Shown here piece by piece: positions 35,715 through 43,973 of a stretch of DNA of 64,000 nucleotides. Both the position numbers and the translations under genes were made by a program. Below the pieces are notes generated by a model that ran no database searches, was not told where the DNA came from, and saw only the letters and a program-made list of their open reading frames with translations. The first letter of the stretch is position 1; each line of letters opens with the position of its first letter. The DNA is from Syntrophothermus lipocalidus DSM 12680. Its GTDB lineage: Bacteria > Bacillota > Syntrophomonadia > Syntrophomonadales > Syntrophothermaceae. Location: NCBI RefSeq assembly GCF_000092405.1, contig NC_014220.1, positions 248,001 to 312,000 on the forward strand, read 5' to 3'.

Positions 35715-37817
35715 GTGGTTAAGTTGAGGCTTGAGGACATCATGACTCCCAACCCGGTTCTCTTACATCCCGAAATGCCTGTTTCCGAGGCGGCCAAAGT
35801 CTTTGTCGAACATGGAATAGATGGGGCGCCGGTAGTCGATGAACGCCGCCGGGTTATCGGGTTGCTGACCAAGAGCCATATCTTGAGGCTGGTAAGCCAG
35901 GAGCAGGACATGTCTATTCCGGTGAGTGAGGTGATGACAAGACGGGTCTTGGTTGGCCATCCGAGGGACGAGCTTTCTCAGTATTTCCGCACTACAGTGA
36001 AACGAATTCCAGTAGTACGAGAAGACGAAATTGTAGGGATTGTGACTAATTCCGATTTCCTAGAGGCTTTTTTTGATTCTTACTACCGGATGAGTACCGA
36101 ATTGAAAGCGGTAATAAACGCTACTCATAACGTGATTATTGCTGTTAATGAAAAGGGAATCATCAAGCTTATCAACCAAGCGGCAGAGAAGGCTTTGCAG
36201 GTTACGGCCGAGGAGGCGCTGGGTAGGCACGTAGCTGAAATCATACCTAACACGGGGTTACTGGAGGTCTTGAAAGAGGGTAAAACCCAAACCGCTCAAA
36301 AAATATGGCTCAATAGCCGTTGTTTTATTTCTAACCGTACGCCTATCTGGAAAGGCGAGACCCTTATTGGCGCCGTAGCCGTGCTTCAGGACGTATCAGA
36401 ACTGGAGGCCGTGTCCCAGGAGCTACAGTTTGTCAAGGATCTCAATGAAGTACTCAATGCTATTATCGAGTCTTCGTTTGACGGTCTGTTCATCACTGAT
36501 CGAAACGGCTACATTCTGCGGGCCAACCAAGCTTTGGAAAGAATTACCGGGTTTGAACCAGGAACCTTGGTGGGGCAGAACATTGAAGTTTTGGTTAAAA
36601 AGGGCATAGTTGCTCAAGAAGCTGCTAGCCTGGGGATCAGTACCGACCAACCTTGTACTTCGATGCAGACAACCCCCGAGGGTAAGGCCATCCTGTGGAC
36701 AGGCAGCCCGGTGTTCGATGAAGACGGGCGGGTCACAAGGATTGTCTACAATGTGAGGGATATGACGGAACTGACCCGGCTTGAACAGAAACTGGAACAG
36801 GCCCGCAGTCTGAGCCAACACTATGAAAGCCAGCTGAAGACTTTGAAGCTGCAGTACGTGGGTTCGGATAGATTGGTTGTCGGTTCGGCTGCCATGCGTA
36901 AGCTCATAGAAATGGTGGTAAGGGTGGGACAGGTAGACTCAACCGTGTTAATCACGGGAGAATCGGGGACCGGGAAAGAGTTGATAGCGGAGACGATTCA
37001 TAACAACAGCCGAAGGCGAGAAGGACCTTTTATCAAAGTAAACTGCGGCGCTATTCCTGAGCATTTATTGGAATCAGAACTTTTCGGTTATGAGGCTGGA
37101 GCTTTTACAGGAGCCAGGCGAGAAGGAAAAGCCGGTTACTTTGAAATGGCAGATGGGGGCACGCTTTTTTTAGATGAGATTGGAGAACTGCCCTTGAACC
37201 TCCAGGTAAAACTATTGCGGGTGTTGCAGAGTAAAGAGGTAACGCGGGTTGGTAGCACCCGGCCCACACGAGTTGACGCCAGGATTCTCGCGGGGACAAA
37301 CCGCAATCTCGAGGAAATGGTTCAAAACAAGCAGTTCCGTGAAGACCTTTACTACCGTTTAAACGTGATACCGCTTTACGTACCGCCGCTGAGAGAGCGA
37401 AAAGAGGAGATTCCGTTGTTAGTTGTGCATTTTGTAAAATTGATAAATCAAAAATACGAGATGAACAAGCGTTTTTCTCCGGAAGCTATCGAGGTTTTAA
37501 TGAAGTATGATTGGCCCGGCAATGTAAGGGAATTGGAGAACCTGGTAGAAAGGTTGCTGGTCACGTGTAGCGGTGACATAGTGAAGGTGGAAGATCTCCC
37601 ACCACAGTTTGGTGGAGGAACAACGGGGGCCGCGGAAGTAAGGGTTTCGGGCATTCTTCCCTTAAAAGACGCGGTGGAGAGCGTGGAAAGGCAGATATTA
37701 GAAAAAGCCTATGCTGAATACCGTACAACCAGGCAAATAGCTAGCAAACTAAGAGTCGATGCTTCGACTATAGTGAGAAAGGCTGCCAAATACGGGCTGA
37801 TAAATAAACTGAATTAG
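35715..37817 (+). CDS. Sigma-54-dependent activator with CBS pair and two PAS domains
   Basis: 700 residues. Two CBS motifs (about 5-115; IMTPNPVLL, DGAPVVDERRRVIGLLT, VMTRRVLVG, RIPVVREDEIVGIVT) bind an adenosyl ligand such as AMP or ATP. PAS domains follow at about 125-235 and 250-365, then a short coiled coil. The AAA+ core (about 385-620) has Walker A GESGTGKE, the sigma-54 contact loop GAFTGA, Walker B LFLDEIGEL and the arginine finger region. The end (RTTRQIASKLRVDASTIVRKAAKYG) is a helix-turn-helix. GTG start after GGAAGG. A perfect sigma-54 promoter lies 180 bases downstream, so it very probably drives the beta-oxidation operon in response to energy charge. Confidence 0.93.
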   Translation: MVKLRLEDIMTPNPVLLHPEMPVSEAAKVFVEHGIDGAPVVDERRRVIGLLTKSHILRLVSQEQDMSIPVSEVMTRRVLVGHPRDELSQYFRTTVKRIPVVREDEIVGIVTNSDFLEAFFDSYYRMSTELKAVINATHNVIIAVNEKGIIKLINQAAEKALQVTAEEALGRHVAEIIPNTGLLEVLKEGKTQTAQKIWLNSRCFISNRTPIWKGETLIGAVAVLQDVSELEAVSQELQFVKDLNEVLNAIIESSFDGLFITDRNGYILRANQALERITGFEPGTLVGQNIEVLVKKGIVAQEAASLGISTDQPCTSMQTTPEGKAILWTGSPVFDEDGRVTRIVYNVRDMTELTRLEQKLEQARSLSQHYESQLKTLKLQYVGSDRLVVGSAAMRKLIEMVVRVGQVDSTVLITGESGTGKELIAETIHNNSRRREGPFIKVNCGAIPEHLLESELFGYEAGAFTGARREGKAGYFEMADGGTLFLDEIGELPLNLQVKLLRVLQSKEVTRVGSTRPTRVDARILAGTNRNLEEMVQNKQFREDLYYRLNVIPLYVPPLRERKEEIPLLVVHFVKLINQKYEMNKRFSPEAIEVLMKYDWPGNVRELENLVERLLVTCSGDIVKVEDLPPQFGGGTTGAAEVRVSGILPLKDAVESVERQILEKAYAEYRTTRQIASKLRVDASTIVRKAAKYGLINKLN

Positions 37818-37832
37818 TTGCGGTATCGCAAC
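37817..37832. promoter_or_regulatory. Candidate activator site (inverted repeat)
   Basis: GTTGCG, four bases, CGCAAC: a perfect six-base-arm dyad that begins in the stop codon of the activator gene and lies 165-180 bases before the sigma-54 promoter, a normal distance for an enhancer-type site. A further TTGTTGCAATTATACAA stretch near 37879 shares the GTTGC/GCAA element. Confidence 0.4.
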
Positions 37833-37996: not shown

Positions 37997-38013
37997 TGGC
38001 ACGCAACTTGCAC
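37997..38013 (+). promoter_or_regulatory. Sigma-54 promoter
   Basis: TGGCAC, GCAAC, TTGCAC: the -24 GG (37998-37999) and -12 GC (38010-38011) are ten bases apart and every consensus position is met. It points towards the Com-like gene and the thl operon, and follows the sigma-54 activator gene. Confidence 0.92.
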
Positions 38014-38094
38014 TTTAATAAAGCGGTTGCCGGGAAGCTCCTATCGGAAGCACGCGTCACGTAAGTTTTCCGAATTACTTCCCTCACTAGTTGC

Positions 38095-38132
38095 CCGCGC
38101 CGTGACTTGTACGGCGACACGGCGCGGAGGCA
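38095..38132 (+). other. Strong GC-rich hairpin in the operon leader
   Basis: CCGCGCCGTG (38095-38104) pairs perfectly with CACGGCGCGG (38118-38127), followed by AGGCATTTTTC. It is near-terminator in form and lies about 80 bases after the sigma-54 promoter. A second imperfect hairpin (AGCCCCG...ACCTGACGGGGCT, 38207-38234) follows. Confidence 0.6.
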
Positions 38133-38279
38133 TTTTTCTTTGAGACGTGAGGCATGATGAAGGCGAAGAACTTAATAGAATTGAGATAGCTGGAAGAGAG
38201 CCCCTGAGCCCCGCCAGGTAGACCTGACGGGGCTAATCTGTTCTTCTATATTGAGTGGCGGTGAAGGGGTGAAGACAGA

Positions 38280-38432
38280 TTGAAAGAATTCAGGTGCCAG
38301 AAGTGCAATAAACTGTTAGGAAAGTACAGGGAATGCCAGGAACTGGAAATCAAATGCCCCCGTTGCGGTTACAAGAATTATTTAAAAGAAGAGCCGGTGG
38401 TGACCGTGGCGAGCAGTGATCAGAAGAAGTAA
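38280..38432 (+). CDS. Com-like small zinc-finger protein
   Basis: 50 residues from a TTG start behind AAGGGGTG. FRCQKCNKLLGKYRECQELEIKCPRCGYKN has two Cys pairs (CQKC, CPRC) with a fifth Cys between, in the pattern of the phage Mu Com family: a small zinc-bound RNA-binding protein that in Mu frees the ribosome site of mom. Com-like mini-genes also occur outside phages. Here it lies alone in the leader between the sigma-54 promoter and the beta-oxidation genes, flanked by two similar hairpins; no phage genes are near. Confidence 0.75.
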   Translation: MKEFRCQKCNKLLGKYRECQELEIKCPRCGYKNYLKEEPVVTVASSDQKK

Positions 38433-38477
38433 ACCGCTAGTCGTTAAAGTGTAATGGACAGCCTGGTGGTAGTTTGT

Positions 38478-38568
38478 GGGATACCCTCCCTACCCCGGGG
38501 TCTTCCGGACCTCAGTTTGCTGAGAGCCGCTGAGCTCCTCGGGGGACCTTTAAAAGGCAGGGTTATCT
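38478..38568 (+). ncRNA. Candidate structured RNA in the thl leader
   Basis: GATACCCT-C-CCT near 38480-38492 pairs with AGG-C-AGGGTTATC near 38556-38568 to close a long stem with one bulge and one mismatch. Inside, GGTC/GACC (38499-38511), CTCAG/CTGAG around TTTG (38511-38524) and GAGC/GCTC (38524-38537) can form further hairpins. An intrinsic terminator follows at 38640. The layout is that of a riboswitch or attenuator, but the core matches no class known to me. It is proposed from pairing alone. Confidence 0.4.
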
Positions 38569-38639
38569 TGAAATAGGGGTACTTGCCGCGCAGGATGGAT
38601 CAAAAAGTGGATACTGTGAGTGAATTTAGAGAGCCTTTG

Positions 38640-38672
38640 AGCCCCGTCACTTTTGTTGGCGGGGCTTTTTTG
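38640..38672 (+). terminator. Intrinsic terminator before the thiolase gene
   Basis: AGCCCCGTC pairs with GGCGGGGCT (one G-T pair) and is followed by six T. It lies 125 bases upstream of the thiolase start and downstream of the sigma-54 promoter, with no obvious second promoter between, so it is likely a regulated attenuator. The sequence before it (AGAGAGCC...GAGCCCCG) repeats the one at 38197-38213. Confidence 0.85.
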
Positions 38673-38797
38673 CTGATGAAGGGCAGGGTTTGTCCTCGAC
38701 CAAAAGAATTGCTTGGGTTTTAGCCCAGAAAGGGGGATGGTGAAGGAGGTCGATAAGTTTGCAGCTGTTTACAACACTTGAAAGGGAGGAATGGAAC

Positions 38798-39994
38798 GTG
38801 AGAGAGGTTGTCATCGTAGGAGCAGCAAGAACACCTTTTGGTAGATTCGGCGGCGCCTTAAAGTCGTTCAAGGCGGTAGAGTTGGGAGCCATCGCCATTA
38901 AAGAGGCCGTCAACCGGGCAGGCATAAAGCCGGAACAGGTCGATTACGTTTACTATGGTCAGGTAGTACAAGCCGGTTGCGGGCAGGTTCCAGGGCGGCA
39001 GGCAGCTATCAAGGCGGGAATCCCCGTGGAGGTACCTTCCATCACGGTGAATAAAGTCTGTTCATCCGGTATTATTACCTGCGGGCTAGCCTACAAGATG
39101 ATCGCTGCCGGGTATATAGACATTGCTGTCGGTGGTGGGATGGAGAGCATGTCCAATATCCCGTTCGGGCTGTTCGACATGCGCTGGGGGGCTCGGATGG
39201 GCGTTCCGAACAAGAACTGTACCGACTTGATGGTATGGGACGGTTTGTGGTGTGCTTTCTACAACCGGCACATGGCTATTCACGGGTCGGAAGTCGCAAG
39301 AGAGTTCGGGTTGGATCGCGAGCCTCAGGACCGCTGGGCAGTGCGCAGCCAGAACCGGGCCGAAGCGGCTATTAAAGCGGGAAGGCTGAAGGACGAGATC
39401 GTACCGGTAACGGTACCAGGAAAGAAGCCGGTTGTGGTGGACACTGACGAGCAGCCTCGATTTGGGTGCACCTATGAAGACATCGCAAAACTACCTCCGG
39501 TATTCGACCCGCAGGGAACCATAACTGCAGGGAACGCTCCGGGAACCAATGACGGGGCCAGTGCGCTGGTTCTGATGGCCAAAGAAAAAGCCGAGGAACT
39601 GGGAATCAAGCCGCTGGCAACCGTATTGGGTTACGCTGAAGTCTCGCAGGAGCCTAGGTATATAGCTACTGTGCCCGGACTGTCGATTAAGAAGTTGTTA
39701 GACGAGAAGGGCATGTCGATCAAAGATATGGACCTCATCGAGATCAACGAAGCCTTTGCCGCAGTAGTTCTGACCAGTGGGAAAGCCATCCTCGGGCTGA
39801 CCGACGAGGAGCTGGATGAGAAGGTCAACGTCAACGGTAGCGCCATAGCCTTCGGACATCCCATCGGAGCCTCTGGCGGCCGTATACTGATGACCCTGGC
39901 CTACGAGCTCAAGCGGCGCGGCGGCGGACTCGGAGTATGCGGGATCTGCAGCGGTGCAGCTCAGGGCGATGCGATGATGATCAAGGTCGAGTAG
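38798..39994 (+). CDS. Acetyl-CoA acetyltransferase (thiolase)
   Basis: Cleaves acetoacetyl-CoA (or a 3-ketoacyl-CoA) with CoA to acetyl-CoA, the last step of butyrate oxidation; works in reverse in butyrate synthesis. 398 residues, standard. The acylated Cys is in VNKVCSSGI (near residue 88); NEAFAAV and GHPIGASGGR carry the catalytic His; the second Cys sits in GVCGICSGAAQGDA, where most thiolases have CIGGGQG, a clostridial variation. GTG start behind GGGAGG. First gene of the set thl-hbd-acd; no enoyl-CoA hydratase is nearby, so crotonase must come from elsewhere. Confidence 0.93.
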   Translation: MREVVIVGAARTPFGRFGGALKSFKAVELGAIAIKEAVNRAGIKPEQVDYVYYGQVVQAGCGQVPGRQAAIKAGIPVEVPSITVNKVCSSGIITCGLAYKMIAAGYIDIAVGGGMESMSNIPFGLFDMRWGARMGVPNKNCTDLMVWDGLWCAFYNRHMAIHGSEVAREFGLDREPQDRWAVRSQNRAEAAIKAGRLKDEIVPVTVPGKKPVVVDTDEQPRFGCTYEDIAKLPPVFDPQGTITAGNAPGTNDGASALVLMAKEKAEELGIKPLATVLGYAEVSQEPRYIATVPGLSIKKLLDEKGMSIKDMDLIEINEAFAAVVLTSGKAILGLTDEELDEKVNVNGSAIAFGHPIGASGGRILMTLAYELKRRGGGLGVCGICSGAAQGDAMMIKVE

Positions 39995-40044
39995 ACAGTA
40001 AGCCCTTAAGGGATTCAAGGTAATGCATGGAGGGGGTTATAAAG

Positions 40045-40899
40045 GTGGAAGTCAAAAAGATATTCGTGGTGGGTGCTGGCCAGATGGGTGGAGGCATCAC
40101 CCAGGTTGCAGCGCAAGCAGGATATGAAGTGGTCCAGTATGACATTACCATGGAACTGGTAGAAAAAGGGCTAGGAGTAATTACCAAGAACCTTTCCAAG
40201 GATGTGGAGAAAGGCAAGAGGACCGCAGAAGAGAAGGACGCCATCCTGGGGCGTATCAGCAAATCGGTAAGCCTCGAAGACGCGAAAGATGCTGACCTGG
40301 TAATTGAAGCAGTCGTCGAAAATTTTGACATTAAGAAGAATATATTCAGCGAATTGGACAGGATTTGCCCTGAGCACACCATTCTTGCTACTAACACCTC
40401 ATCTCTGCCGATAACTCAGATTGCAGCTTGCACCAAGCGTCCAGAGAAGGTTATCGGAATGCACTTCATGAACCCGGTGCCGGTCATGAAACTGGTCGAA
40501 ATCATCCGGGGCCTGGCTACTACCGATGAAGTCTACCAGGTTGTAGAAGAGGCCTCAATAAAGATGGGTAAAGTACCTGTTTGGTGTAAAGATGTACCCG
40601 GGTTTGTATCGAACCGGGTTCTTCAGGTAATGATTAACGAGGCTTTGTGGGAGCTGTATGAAGGGGTGGCCCCGGCCGAGAATATCGACAACATCATGAA
40701 ACTGGGGATGAACCATCCTATGGGACCGCTGGCTCTGGCTGACTTGATTGGTCTCGATACGGTACTGGCTATTCTCAATGTAATGTACCAAGGGTATGGA
40801 GATCCGAAGTACCGTCCGTCCCCGCTGTTGAAGCAGTATGTCCAGGCCGGCTGGTTGGGCAGAAAGACCGGCAAGGGTATCTACGACTACAGCAAGTAG
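40045..40899 (+). CDS. hbd: 3-hydroxybutyryl-CoA dehydrogenase
   Basis: NAD-dependent oxidation of 3-hydroxyacyl-CoA to 3-ketoacyl-CoA. 284 residues, the typical single-function size. Rossmann motif [16 protein letters not shown] at the start; [12 protein letters not shown], the catalytic His in [17 protein letters not shown] with its Glu, and [17 protein letters not shown] are all conserved. The GTG at 40045 is chosen because GGAGGGGG (40029-40036) fits it; the ATG at 40027 would overlap the site. Spaced 50 bases from the thiolase gene. Confidence 0.95.
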
Positions 40900-40941
40900 G
40901 TGGAGGATTGTCAAAGAAGTTGAATGCAAGGGGTGAGGATA

Positions 40942-42090
40942 TTGCATTTTCAATTGAGTGAAGAGTCTTTAATGTTAAGGGATATGGTCCGCAAGTTTGT
41001 CAAAAACGAAGTAGAACCGATCGCGGCCGAGATCGACCGCGAGCACCGGTTCCCCATGGAGACGTTCAAGAAGCTAGCTGATCTGGGACTTACCGGGATA
41101 CCGATTCCGGAAGAGTGGGGCGGAGCAGGCGGCACTTATCTCGACTTTGCCATGTTCATTGAGGAGCTAGCCAAGGCTTGTGCATCTACTGCCGTCATAA
41201 TGGCGGTTCATACCGGGTTAGGTTGCATGAGCACTTATCTCTATGGCACGGAGAAGGCAAAACAAAAATACCTCCGGGCGCTGGCCACCGGTGAAATTAT
41301 AGGGGCGTACGCTCTCACCGAGCCGAATGCCGGTTCAGATGCGGCTTCTATTCGGTGCAGGGCAGAGGATGCCGGGGACCATTTCATAGTGAACGGCAGC
41401 AAGATATTCATTACCAACGGCGGGTATGCTACTACGTATTGCACATTCGTAAAGACCGATCCCTCCCAGCCCCCTGGCAAAGGCATCACATGCCTCATCA
41501 TAGAGAAAGATACTCCTGGCTTCTCCATCAGCAAGCCGGTAGAGAAGATGGGCATGAACGGGTCTCCTACCTGCGAGCTCTACTTTGACAATGTCAAGGT
41601 ACCAAAAGAAAACGTGTTGGGTGAGGTCAATAATGGGTTCGAAGTGGCGATGGGATTGCTGGACGGCGGGCGTATAACAATCGCGGCTCAGGGGCTTGGC
41701 ATAGGTGAGGGCGCTCTTGAATATACAGTTAATTATATAAAAGAAAGAAAGCAGTTCGGCCGTCCCTTAGCAGCAAACCAGGGTGTGCAGTTCATGGTGG
41801 CCGATATGGCTACTGCCCTGGAAGCGGCTCAGCTTCTGGTATACCGGGCAGCATGGCTGAAGGACAACAAGCTTCCCCACAGCAAGGAAGCTTCTATGGC
41901 CAAGAAGTTTGCTACCGACACATCTATGGAAGTTTGCACCAACTGTGTACAGTTGATGGGCGGGTACGGCTACTGCAAAGAGTTCCCGGTCGAACGCATG
42001 ATGAGAGACGTGAAAGTGACCCAGATTTACGAGGGCTCTAACCAAATTCAAAGGATGATAATTGGCAGGCACGTTATCGGTCGTTTCTAG
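40942..42090 (+). CDS. Acyl-CoA dehydrogenase (short chain, butyryl-CoA type)
   Basis: FAD enzyme of about 382 residues that oxidises acyl-CoA to enoyl-CoA and passes electrons to electron-transfer flavoprotein. Family signatures: YALTEPNAGSDAASIR, FITNGGYATTY, GMNGSPTCELYFDNVKVP, LMGGYGYCKEFPVERMMRDVKV and the catalytic glutamate in QIYEGSNQIQRMIIGRH. TTG 40942 is the likely start, after GGGGTGAGG; ATG 40924 lacks a ribosome site. Together with the preceding two genes it covers most of butyrate beta-oxidation. etfAB is not in the window. A terminator follows. Confidence 0.93.
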   Translation: MHFQLSEESLMLRDMVRKFVKNEVEPIAAEIDREHRFPMETFKKLADLGLTGIPIPEEWGGAGGTYLDFAMFIEELAKACASTAVIMAVHTGLGCMSTYLYGTEKAKQKYLRALATGEIIGAYALTEPNAGSDAASIRCRAEDAGDHFIVNGSKIFITNGGYATTYCTFVKTDPSQPPGKGITCLIIEKDTPGFSISKPVEKMGMNGSPTCELYFDNVKVPKENVLGEVNNGFEVAMGLLDGGRITIAAQGLGIGEGALEYTVNYIKERKQFGRPLAANQGVQFMVADMATALEAAQLLVYRAAWLKDNKLPHSKEASMAKKFATDTSMEVCTNCVQLMGGYGYCKEFPVERMMRDVKVTQIYEGSNQIQRMIIGRHVIGRF

Positions 42091-42182: not shown

Positions 42183-43160
42183 ATGGGTAAACCGGAAAAA
42201 ATTACGCTGCAAGAGGCGGCCAGTCTCATTAAGGACGGCGACCTGTTGACCTTCAGCGGGTTCACTATCTGGCGCCGGCCGATGGCTTTGGTTTACGAAC
42301 TGGCACGCCAGGGCAAGAAAAACCTGCATCTTTTCGAGGTCAACGGTGGAACCCACACTGAAGTCCTGGCCGGGGCAGGATGCGTGAAGATATGGGAATC
42401 CTGCTGGGTCGGGCACGAGTTGTATGGAAAGTTGGGCGAGATGGTAGCAGCTGGCCAGGTGAAAGGGTCAATCATTACCGAGGACTACAGCCACGCTCAG
42501 TGTGTGGCCAGGCTTTTGGCCGGAGCATATGGAATTCCCTTCATGCCTACTGCTCACAGCATGGGCACCGACATTTTAAACCCCGAATTCGACATGCTGA
42601 GTAGAGCCGGACTGAGAGACGGCTCCAATCCGAAGATTCCTCTGAAGAAGTATGACATTATTCATGACCCCTTCTACAACATGGGTGAAATACTGCTGAT
42701 GCCGGCGGTTAACCCCGACTGGGCTCTCATCTACGCTTCTCAGGTAGGAGACGAAGGAACGGTTCGCGTCAATGCCCAGACCTATACCGATGCGGAGGCT
42801 ATCAAGGCTGCGGACAAGGTAATCGTTTTGGCAGAAGAGATAGTACCCGACAGTTACCTGCGTCAGGAACCTAAGCTTAATCTCGCGACCGGTTATGCCG
42901 TCGATTACGTGGTCGAGCTTCCCTGGGCGGCGCATCCCACGGGCTCTCAAGGGTACTATGACGTCGACGCCGATTTCATAAGAGCGTTCTATTCCGCTTC
43001 CAAGTCCCAGGAAAGCTTTGACAAGTGGGCGGATGAGTGGGTATTCGGGGTCAAGAACCACGACGAGTACTTAGCGAAATTGGGAATTACTCGGTTGGAA
43101 AAATTGAGAGCCAACGCAGCTCTGGGCTATTCAACACGGGTGAAAAGGGGGAAGAGATAA
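42183..43160 (+). CDS. CoA-transferase subunit A (glutaconate CoA-transferase GctA-like)
   Basis: 325 residues, class I CoA-transferase alpha subunit. It has the GctA-type opening (ITLQEAASLIKDGDLLTFSGFTIWRRPMALVYELARQG) and the later GIPFMPTAHSMGTDI and PAVNPDWALIYASQVGDEGTVR. With the B subunit it would move CoA between a short-chain acid and an acyl-CoA, for instance activating butyrate at the expense of acetyl-CoA; the true pair of acids cannot be read from sequence. ATG after AGGAGGAGGTAG. The B gene begins directly at the next base. Confidence 0.88.
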   Translation: MGKPEKITLQEAASLIKDGDLLTFSGFTIWRRPMALVYELARQGKKNLHLFEVNGGTHTEVLAGAGCVKIWESCWVGHELYGKLGEMVAAGQVKGSIITEDYSHAQCVARLLAGAYGIPFMPTAHSMGTDILNPEFDMLSRAGLRDGSNPKIPLKKYDIIHDPFYNMGEILLMPAVNPDWALIYASQVGDEGTVRVNAQTYTDAEAIKAADKVIVLAEEIVPDSYLRQEPKLNLATGYAVDYVVELPWAAHPTGSQGYYDVDADFIRAFYSASKSQESFDKWADEWVFGVKNHDEYLAKLGITRLEKLRANAALGYSTRVKRGKR

Positions 43161-43973
43161 ATGTCGGCCAAGAACGAATACGCCAAGCCGGGTGAATACA
43201 AACCCATTGACCTGTTGGCAGTATCTGCTGCCCGGGAGGTACGGGACGGTGACGTGGTGTTTGCCGGAACTGGCCTGCCTATGCTGGCCATAATGCTGGC
43301 CCAACTTTCGCACGCCCCGAACGCGGTCTGCATCTATGAAGCAGGGTCTGTTGACGGCCGGGCTATTGACCTGCCGACCTCAGTCGGAGATGCCCGCTGC
43401 GCTTACCAGGCAGCCATCGCAGCTGGACTTACAGAGGCATTCTTCGGGCAGCTCCACTGCGGCTATGTTGACCTTGGCTTCTTGGGAGGAGCCGAGATAG
43501 ACAAATATGGCAATGTGAATACTACTGTCGTCGGTAATTACGCCAAACCCAAGAAGCGCTTCACCGGGAGTGGCGGTAACCCCGACATCAACTCTTTGGC
43601 CAGGAGATCAGTCTATATCATGGTCCAAGAGAAAAGAAGATTCAAAGAACACGTCGATTACATTACTGCTCCTGGATGGCGCATAAAGAAATGGCCGAGC
43701 GGTGAGTGGGCGCCGAGGAAAGAGGTATACGGGAAGTTCTTCCGCGGAGGCATAGACACGGTTATCACTGATATGGGGGTCTTCCGTTTTGACGAAGAAG
43801 GTATTATGTACCTAGACACGGTTCACCCCGGGTTCTCGGTGGAAGATGTGAAGAACAACGTAGATTTCGACCTCAATATTTCCAGGGTAAGCGGGGAGAC
43901 ACACCCTCCTACCTACCTGGATATTGAGCTCCTTTACACCAAAGTAGACCCCGAAGGAATATTCCTGCCTTAA
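43161..43973 (+). CDS. CoA-transferase subunit B (GctB-like)
   Basis: 270 residues. The catalytic glutamate that forms the CoA thioester is in CIYEAGSVDGRAI, matching GctB; GFLGGAEIDKYGNVNTTVVG and GSGGNPDINSLA are further family marks. It follows subunit A with no gap, so the two form one heteromeric enzyme. Its place after thl-hbd-acd suggests acid activation for beta-oxidation. The following 333 bases (43974-44306) hold a promoter and no secure gene. Confidence 0.88.
   Translation: MSAKNEYAKPGEYKPIDLLAVSAAREVRDGDVVFAGTGLPMLAIMLAQLSHAPNAVCIYEAGSVDGRAIDLPTSVGDARCAYQAAIAAGLTEAFFGQLHCGYVDLGFLGGAEIDKYGNVNTTVVGNYAKPKKRFTGSGGNPDINSLARRSVYIMVQEKRRFKEHVDYITAPGWRIKKWPSGEWAPRKEVYGKFFRGGIDTVITDMGVFRFDEEGIMYLDTVHPGFSVEDVKNNVDFDLNISRVSGETHPPTYLDIELLYTKVDPEGIFLP

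Follow-up and report, generated by a model that had tools for sequence, protein, structure and literature searches.

The leader of the beta-oxidation operon of Syntrophothermus lipocalidus is probably a protein-controlled transcription attenuator, in which a small zinc-ribbon protein of the Com family antiterminates the operon. Syntrophic fatty-acid oxidizers live together with methanogens. S. lipocalidus TGB-C1 is a syntrophic oxidizer of butyrate and isobutyrate (PMC3035303). The leader is part of a 64-kb stretch of S. lipocalidus DNA, here called the window, and all features described below lie on its + strand. According to a preliminary description of this DNA, either a Com-like protein or a metabolite might decide on read-through into thl, the first gene of the operon. 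The part of this idea that concerns the protein is supported by our analysis, but the part that concerns sensing of a metabolite is not.

The locus begins with the gene of a sigma-54 activator (35715..37817), an NtrC/PrdR-like protein with the architecture CBS-CBS-PAS-PAS-AAA+-HTH (Pfam Sigma54_activat, CBS, PAS, HTH). It is followed by the palindrome TTGCGGTATCGCAA (37818..37831), a candidate activator site, and TTGC..GCAA palindromes are likewise present between the NtrC gene and com in many relatives. The sigma-54 promoter TGGCACGCAACTTGCA is located at 37997..38012, and a sigma-54-type site lies between the two genes in 25 of the 26 loci having an upstream NtrC gene. Com element 1 (38196..38234; R2 E 8.7e-20 genome-wide) stands upstream of com and comprises GAGAGCC-CCT-GAGCCCC (38196-38212) and a hairpin (38206-38234) with a weak U tail. 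com itself starts with TTG and encodes 50 aa (38280..38432). It is followed by Com site 2, a pattern match with the sequence GAGAGCC-GCT-GAGCTCC (38522..38538) that is predicted to be able to form a complete 4-bp Com hairpin, and by Com element 3 (38629..38671; R2 E 5.8e-18 genome-wide, with covariation), in which GAGAGCC-TTT-GAGCCCC (38629-38645) overlaps an intrinsic terminator (38639-38667) that ends in a T-run. One element is present twice here, as the hairpins at 38206 and 38639, both with GAGAGCC on the 5' side. A Shine-Dalgarno-like AAGGAGG (38743..38749) separates the terminator from thl (acetyl-CoA C-acyltransferase, 38798..39994), for which an alternative in-frame TTG start exists at 38759. 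Further downstream are hbd (3-hydroxyacyl-CoA dehydrogenase, 40027..40899), acd (acyl-CoA dehydrogenase, 40924..42090) and ctfA and ctfB (CoA-transferase-like subunits, 42183..43973), the functions of which are assigned by sequence type and the order of which is conserved.

The sigma-54 promoter, two hairpins ahead of com (38091-38133 and 38206-38234), the 50-residue gene, a long closing stem and the intrinsic terminator had all been named in the preliminary description and were all recovered here. The first of the two hairpins (38091..38133) is strong, GC-rich and terminator-like, lies between the sigma-54 promoter and com and is followed by the T-rich tail TTTTCTTTG, without a Com site. A comparable feature was seen only at L082, a related locus of the same family, and the hairpin is thus probably lineage-specific. 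The likewise lineage-specific long stem-loop (38480..38567), formed by GATACCCT (38480-38487) and AGGGTTATC (38559-38567) according to folding, encloses Com site 2. Both structures are not general in relatives and, with the weak-tailed element 1, may tune the expression of com. It had also been stated that the leader has no second promoter, and indeed no strong one was detected in the 4-kb region scanned, where a single 9/12 sigma-70-like site (38224-38252) compares with 2.8 expected by chance. Promoter prediction from sequence likewise gave no convincing promoter 3' of the terminator, from which thl might be transcribed separately.

The 50-aa protein matches Pfam PF10122 (Zn_ribbon_Com) with 43.9 bits (E 1.6e-11), above the gathering threshold of 22.9. 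It shares 53% identity over 36 aa, including the block LEIKCPRC, with a Com of Haemophilus sputorum, and the zinc-ligand cysteines of the CxxC...CxxC pattern (C6, C9, C26 and C29) are invariant among 27 aligned members. Downstream of com there is no mom or phage gene; in its place stands thl-hbd-acd-ctfAB, conserved across the order. Tandem com pairs were observed at L065, L069, L072, L075, L077 and L090, and in the tandem loci of genus g8 the second copy is devoid of the near-invariant third cysteine (C19). At L100 (G018:C84), a second com stands after a perfect sigma-54 site and before acd-ctfAB-thl-hbd, and no Com site was found at this locus. Com-like genes also occur in Clostridium gasigenes, another Bacillota genome, Pelotomaculum and Anaerolineae (L171, L183, L187, L204), with no bipartite site within 1.5 kb.

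When 61 genomes were searched at the DNA level, matches fell chiefly on the start of com, and the loci obtained were then read for the element. In relatives, a hairpin with the constant 5' part GAGAGCC-N3-GAGCCCC is located 3' of com and at times also 5' of it; the consensus of S. lipocalidus and its relatives is GAGAGCC-N3-GAGCCCC…GGGGCU followed by a U-run. The covariance model was derived from an alignment of 34 copies and has an 11-pair stem that was set by hand, RNAalifold on the MAFFT columns giving 6 pairs only. Within the terminator stem, 56 double-changed cells were counted versus 13.6 after shuffling, and 21 further pair types versus 14.2. These pair counts exceed both the shuffles and the slid registers, which indicates that the stem is under selection. 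Both the sequence and the pairing, the conservation of which the preliminary description had left to an alignment with homologous leaders, are hence kept in related genomes.

For the Com finger of H. sputorum, SELEX has yielded the motif NGAGNNCC(N)2-3GAGNNCCNN, with a preference for hairpins that have a six-base loop (PMC6483171). Our element and its model were built from genome alignments before they were compared with this motif, and the leader element is identical to its consensus GAGNNCC-N2-3-GAGNNCC. Sites vary at the N positions of the SELEX motif, as in GAGGGCC, GAGTGCC and GAGCTCC. The pattern occurs three times in the window, always in this leader and on the + strand (38196, 38522 and 38629), with 0.0044 occurrences expected in the leader. 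Its N3 form is found six times in the 2.4-Mb genome, three of these in this leader, and the reversed control three times. In many phage-type or Mu-type loci of other bacteria (L160-L211), a Com site follows the com start at a distance of ~90-235 bases, and at these phage-type sites 39 of 40 N/N' combinations are able to pair, versus 23 after shuffling. This pairing is natural covariation support for the SELEX Com hairpin. We are highly confident that Com would bind the leader element.

com was found in 30 of the 63 genomes of the order Syntrophomonadales by a search independent of the element, and the same 30 genomes carry strong elements (scores above ~28 bits in the genome-wide covariance-model search), a co-occurrence that partly reflects one linked locus, since most elements adjoin com and related genomes are not independent. 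The class-level search covered the same 63 genomes. In several genera (g6, g16, g19, g23), com and the element both have a patchy distribution. The recurring order is NtrC gene, sigma-54 site, com, element, thl, hbd, acd, ctfA and ctfB, at times with a 260-aa ORF, probably a crotonase, between hbd and acd; the NtrC gene is the first of the conserved locus and stands 5' of com in most relatives. Com-less relatives that keep the activator, the sigma-54 promoter and the operon lack the element. In the Com-less single-contig genome G016, for example, NtrC gene, sigma-54 site and thl follow each other directly, without element, and in the likewise Com-less G035 the NtrC gene and a sigma-54 site are located directly 5' of CobA-mutase. 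The 30 neighbourhoods of NtrC genes scanned in Com-less genomes were free of Com sites.

We posit that transcription would be started at 37997-38012 by sigma-54 RNA polymerase together with the NtrC-type activator and that the Com-like protein would be produced early, from the leader. At most loci no terminator separates com from the promoter directly ahead of it, which would allow Com synthesis to precede that of the enzymes. Com would then bind bipartite GAGNNCC-N3-GAGNNCC sites in the nascent RNA (38196, 38522, 38629), and on site 3 it would prevent the terminator from folding, letting the polymerase continue into thl-hbd-acd-ctfAB. In some relatives, Com may also act in trans on operons with the same element. 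As in attenuators of the intrinsic-terminator type, a GC-rich hairpin with a U-run is found between promoter and genes. Half-site 2 of site 3 doubles as the terminator's 5' arm, and the Com-bound form and the terminator should therefore be mutually exclusive; across Syntrophomonadales, half-site 2 is placed within the 5' arm of the predicted terminator stem at 56 of 62 sites, the overlap being a computed one. At most operon sites the Com hairpin has little stability of its own (median +1.3 kcal/mol, mostly with an A x C mismatch), and the terminator should thus win unless Com is bound. The outer pair of this hairpin is without covariation in Syntrophomonadales (70 pairs versus 72 after shuffling). 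For the hairpin form we consequently rely on the phage sites and on SELEX, and Com may read the bipartite motif without a full hairpin, in which case the 5' arm of the terminator would be occupied regardless. We count the weak Com hairpin and its outer pair, the poor U tail of element 1, the site-less L100, the partial linkage behind the co-occurrence and the Com-free hairpin at 38091-38133 against the attenuator.

The same overlap bears on the reverse sign of regulation, namely that Com binds the element and represses, by stabilizing the terminator or blocking expression, with negative feedback as Com accumulates. Sites beside com would permit such autoregulation, and a Com hairpin that is weak on its own next to a strong terminator is compatible with it. 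However, Com would sit on the very segment that serves as the terminator's 5' arm and should thereby open it; the Com of phage Mu opens an inhibitory stem nearby and acts as an activator (PMC6483171), and operons with a Com site instead of a sigma-54 site suggest activation as well. Repression is therefore unlikely in our view, and we infer both that this Com binds its sites in the cell and that it antiterminates rather than stabilizes termination.

The translational activation exerted by Mu Com (PMC6483171) raises another option, in which Com acts post-transcriptionally by protecting or remodelling the leader RNA and so affects thl at the level of stability or translation, the hairpin and U-run being an ordinary stabilizer or processing site. 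A strong Shine-Dalgarno-like sequence 3' of the terminator at 46 of 62 elements, often distant from the annotated start (L062-L101), would agree with this; it is possibly a short leader ORF or an mRNA-stabilizing site. Yet a T-run directly follows the stem at 53 of the 62 Syntrophomonadales sites, compared with 1 of 20 phage-type Com sites, and in the window the terminator hairpin ends ~130 bases 5' of the thl start, leaving a post-transcriptional role quite unlikely. A TCTG-like sequence was also observed within 20 bases upstream of 17 of 62 Com sites, against a background of 6.5% (L062-L101), and could pair with the CAGA of the terminator arm.

A metabolite riboswitch, with the GATACCCT/AGGGTTATC segment governing the terminator and Com being incidental, is very improbable. 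This segment folds better than its shuffles (-42 kcal/mol, z -2.4), but it is absent from the relatives examined, which keep com, element and operon; an Rfam search of the window and seven relatives returned nothing relevant, and the segment was rejected as an aptamer. That the element is nothing but a recurrent intrinsic terminator, of which a GC-rich stem with a T-run would be a normal example, and resembles the Com motif by coincidence is hardly credible, as GAGAGCC is conserved although it is unpaired and outside the terminator stem, the SELEX pattern is matched at 10 fixed bases including the spacing, three sites occur in one leader and the element is present only in Com genomes.

Elements distant from com precede three types of operons, the genes of which are again named by sequence type: a CobA and isobutyryl-CoA-mutase-like operon, a CapA-like/CaiB-like pair, and a CoA-transferase-carboxylase-thiolase operon. 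The mutase operon (L248-L269) has a Com site without a sigma-54 site in 8 genomes, all of them com-positive, and a nearby sigma-54 site without a Com site in 8 genomes; the two were never found together. This either/or pattern would fit a Com that passes the signal of the activator on to distant operons, and the evidence for such a relay is suggestive, coming from few independent clades (the trans mutase site is found in two genera). At the S. lipocalidus mutase operon, neither site was found within 1.5 kb. Taken as a whole, we lean towards the view that a chromosomal Com family became, or always was, a transcription antiterminator in syntrophic bacteria, relaying the NtrC/sigma-54 signal in cis to the core beta-oxidation operon and in trans to further acyl-CoA operons.

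To our knowledge, the Com family has been met only in Mu-like phages. A Com antiterminator, or a Com in Syntrophomonas, was not found in the literature searched, which included few subscription papers. While the Com family and the principle of attenuation are known, their combination, with a Com-class antiterminator acting on a catabolic regulon of the chromosome, is new within that literature. If true, it would represent a previously undescribed class of antitermination protein, a zinc ribbon whose RNA code is known from phage already; it would give the Com family a non-phage role and add a zinc-ribbon protein to the RNA-binding antiterminators. Syntrophic butyrate oxidation, in which little is understood of how the many beta-oxidation paralogues are controlled, would also gain a regulator that can be tested, and the published SELEX motif makes a direct test possible.

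BglG, SacY and LicT are protein-dependent antiterminators with overlapping antiterminator and terminator structures, and so are the ANTAR antiterminators (PMC3369931). In common with them, the RNA-binding protein proposed here would hold on to a 5' structure sharing sequence with the terminator's 5' arm. The system differs from both in its 50-aa zinc ribbon, an unrelated protein with another RNA motif and no known phosphorylation input. Leaders targeted by ANTAR proteins carry tandem hexaloop hairpins with A1 and G4 and have the ANTAR protein nearby. In the Com hairpin, the first loop base is C according to the sequence.

With com-mom of phage Mu (PMC6483171), the leader has in common the PF10122 family, the zinc-finger residues, the bipartite RNA motif GAGNNCC-N2-3-GAGNNCC, the position of com next to its target and, as proposed here, the opening of an inhibitory RNA stem. 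In contrast to Mu, it is chromosomal and serves a catabolic operon under sigma-54, without prophage; its site is fused to an intrinsic terminator and so concerns transcription, whereas the stem in Mu inhibits translation; sites are also located in trans at other operons, and the hairpin stem is weaker owing to the A x C mismatch. As in NtrC/sigma-54 catabolic operons of the PrdR/AtoC type, the activator gene stands beside the -24/-12 promoter of a short-chain acyl-CoA operon. Com-less relatives have this plain version, to which the Com attenuator adds a further layer between promoter and enzymes.
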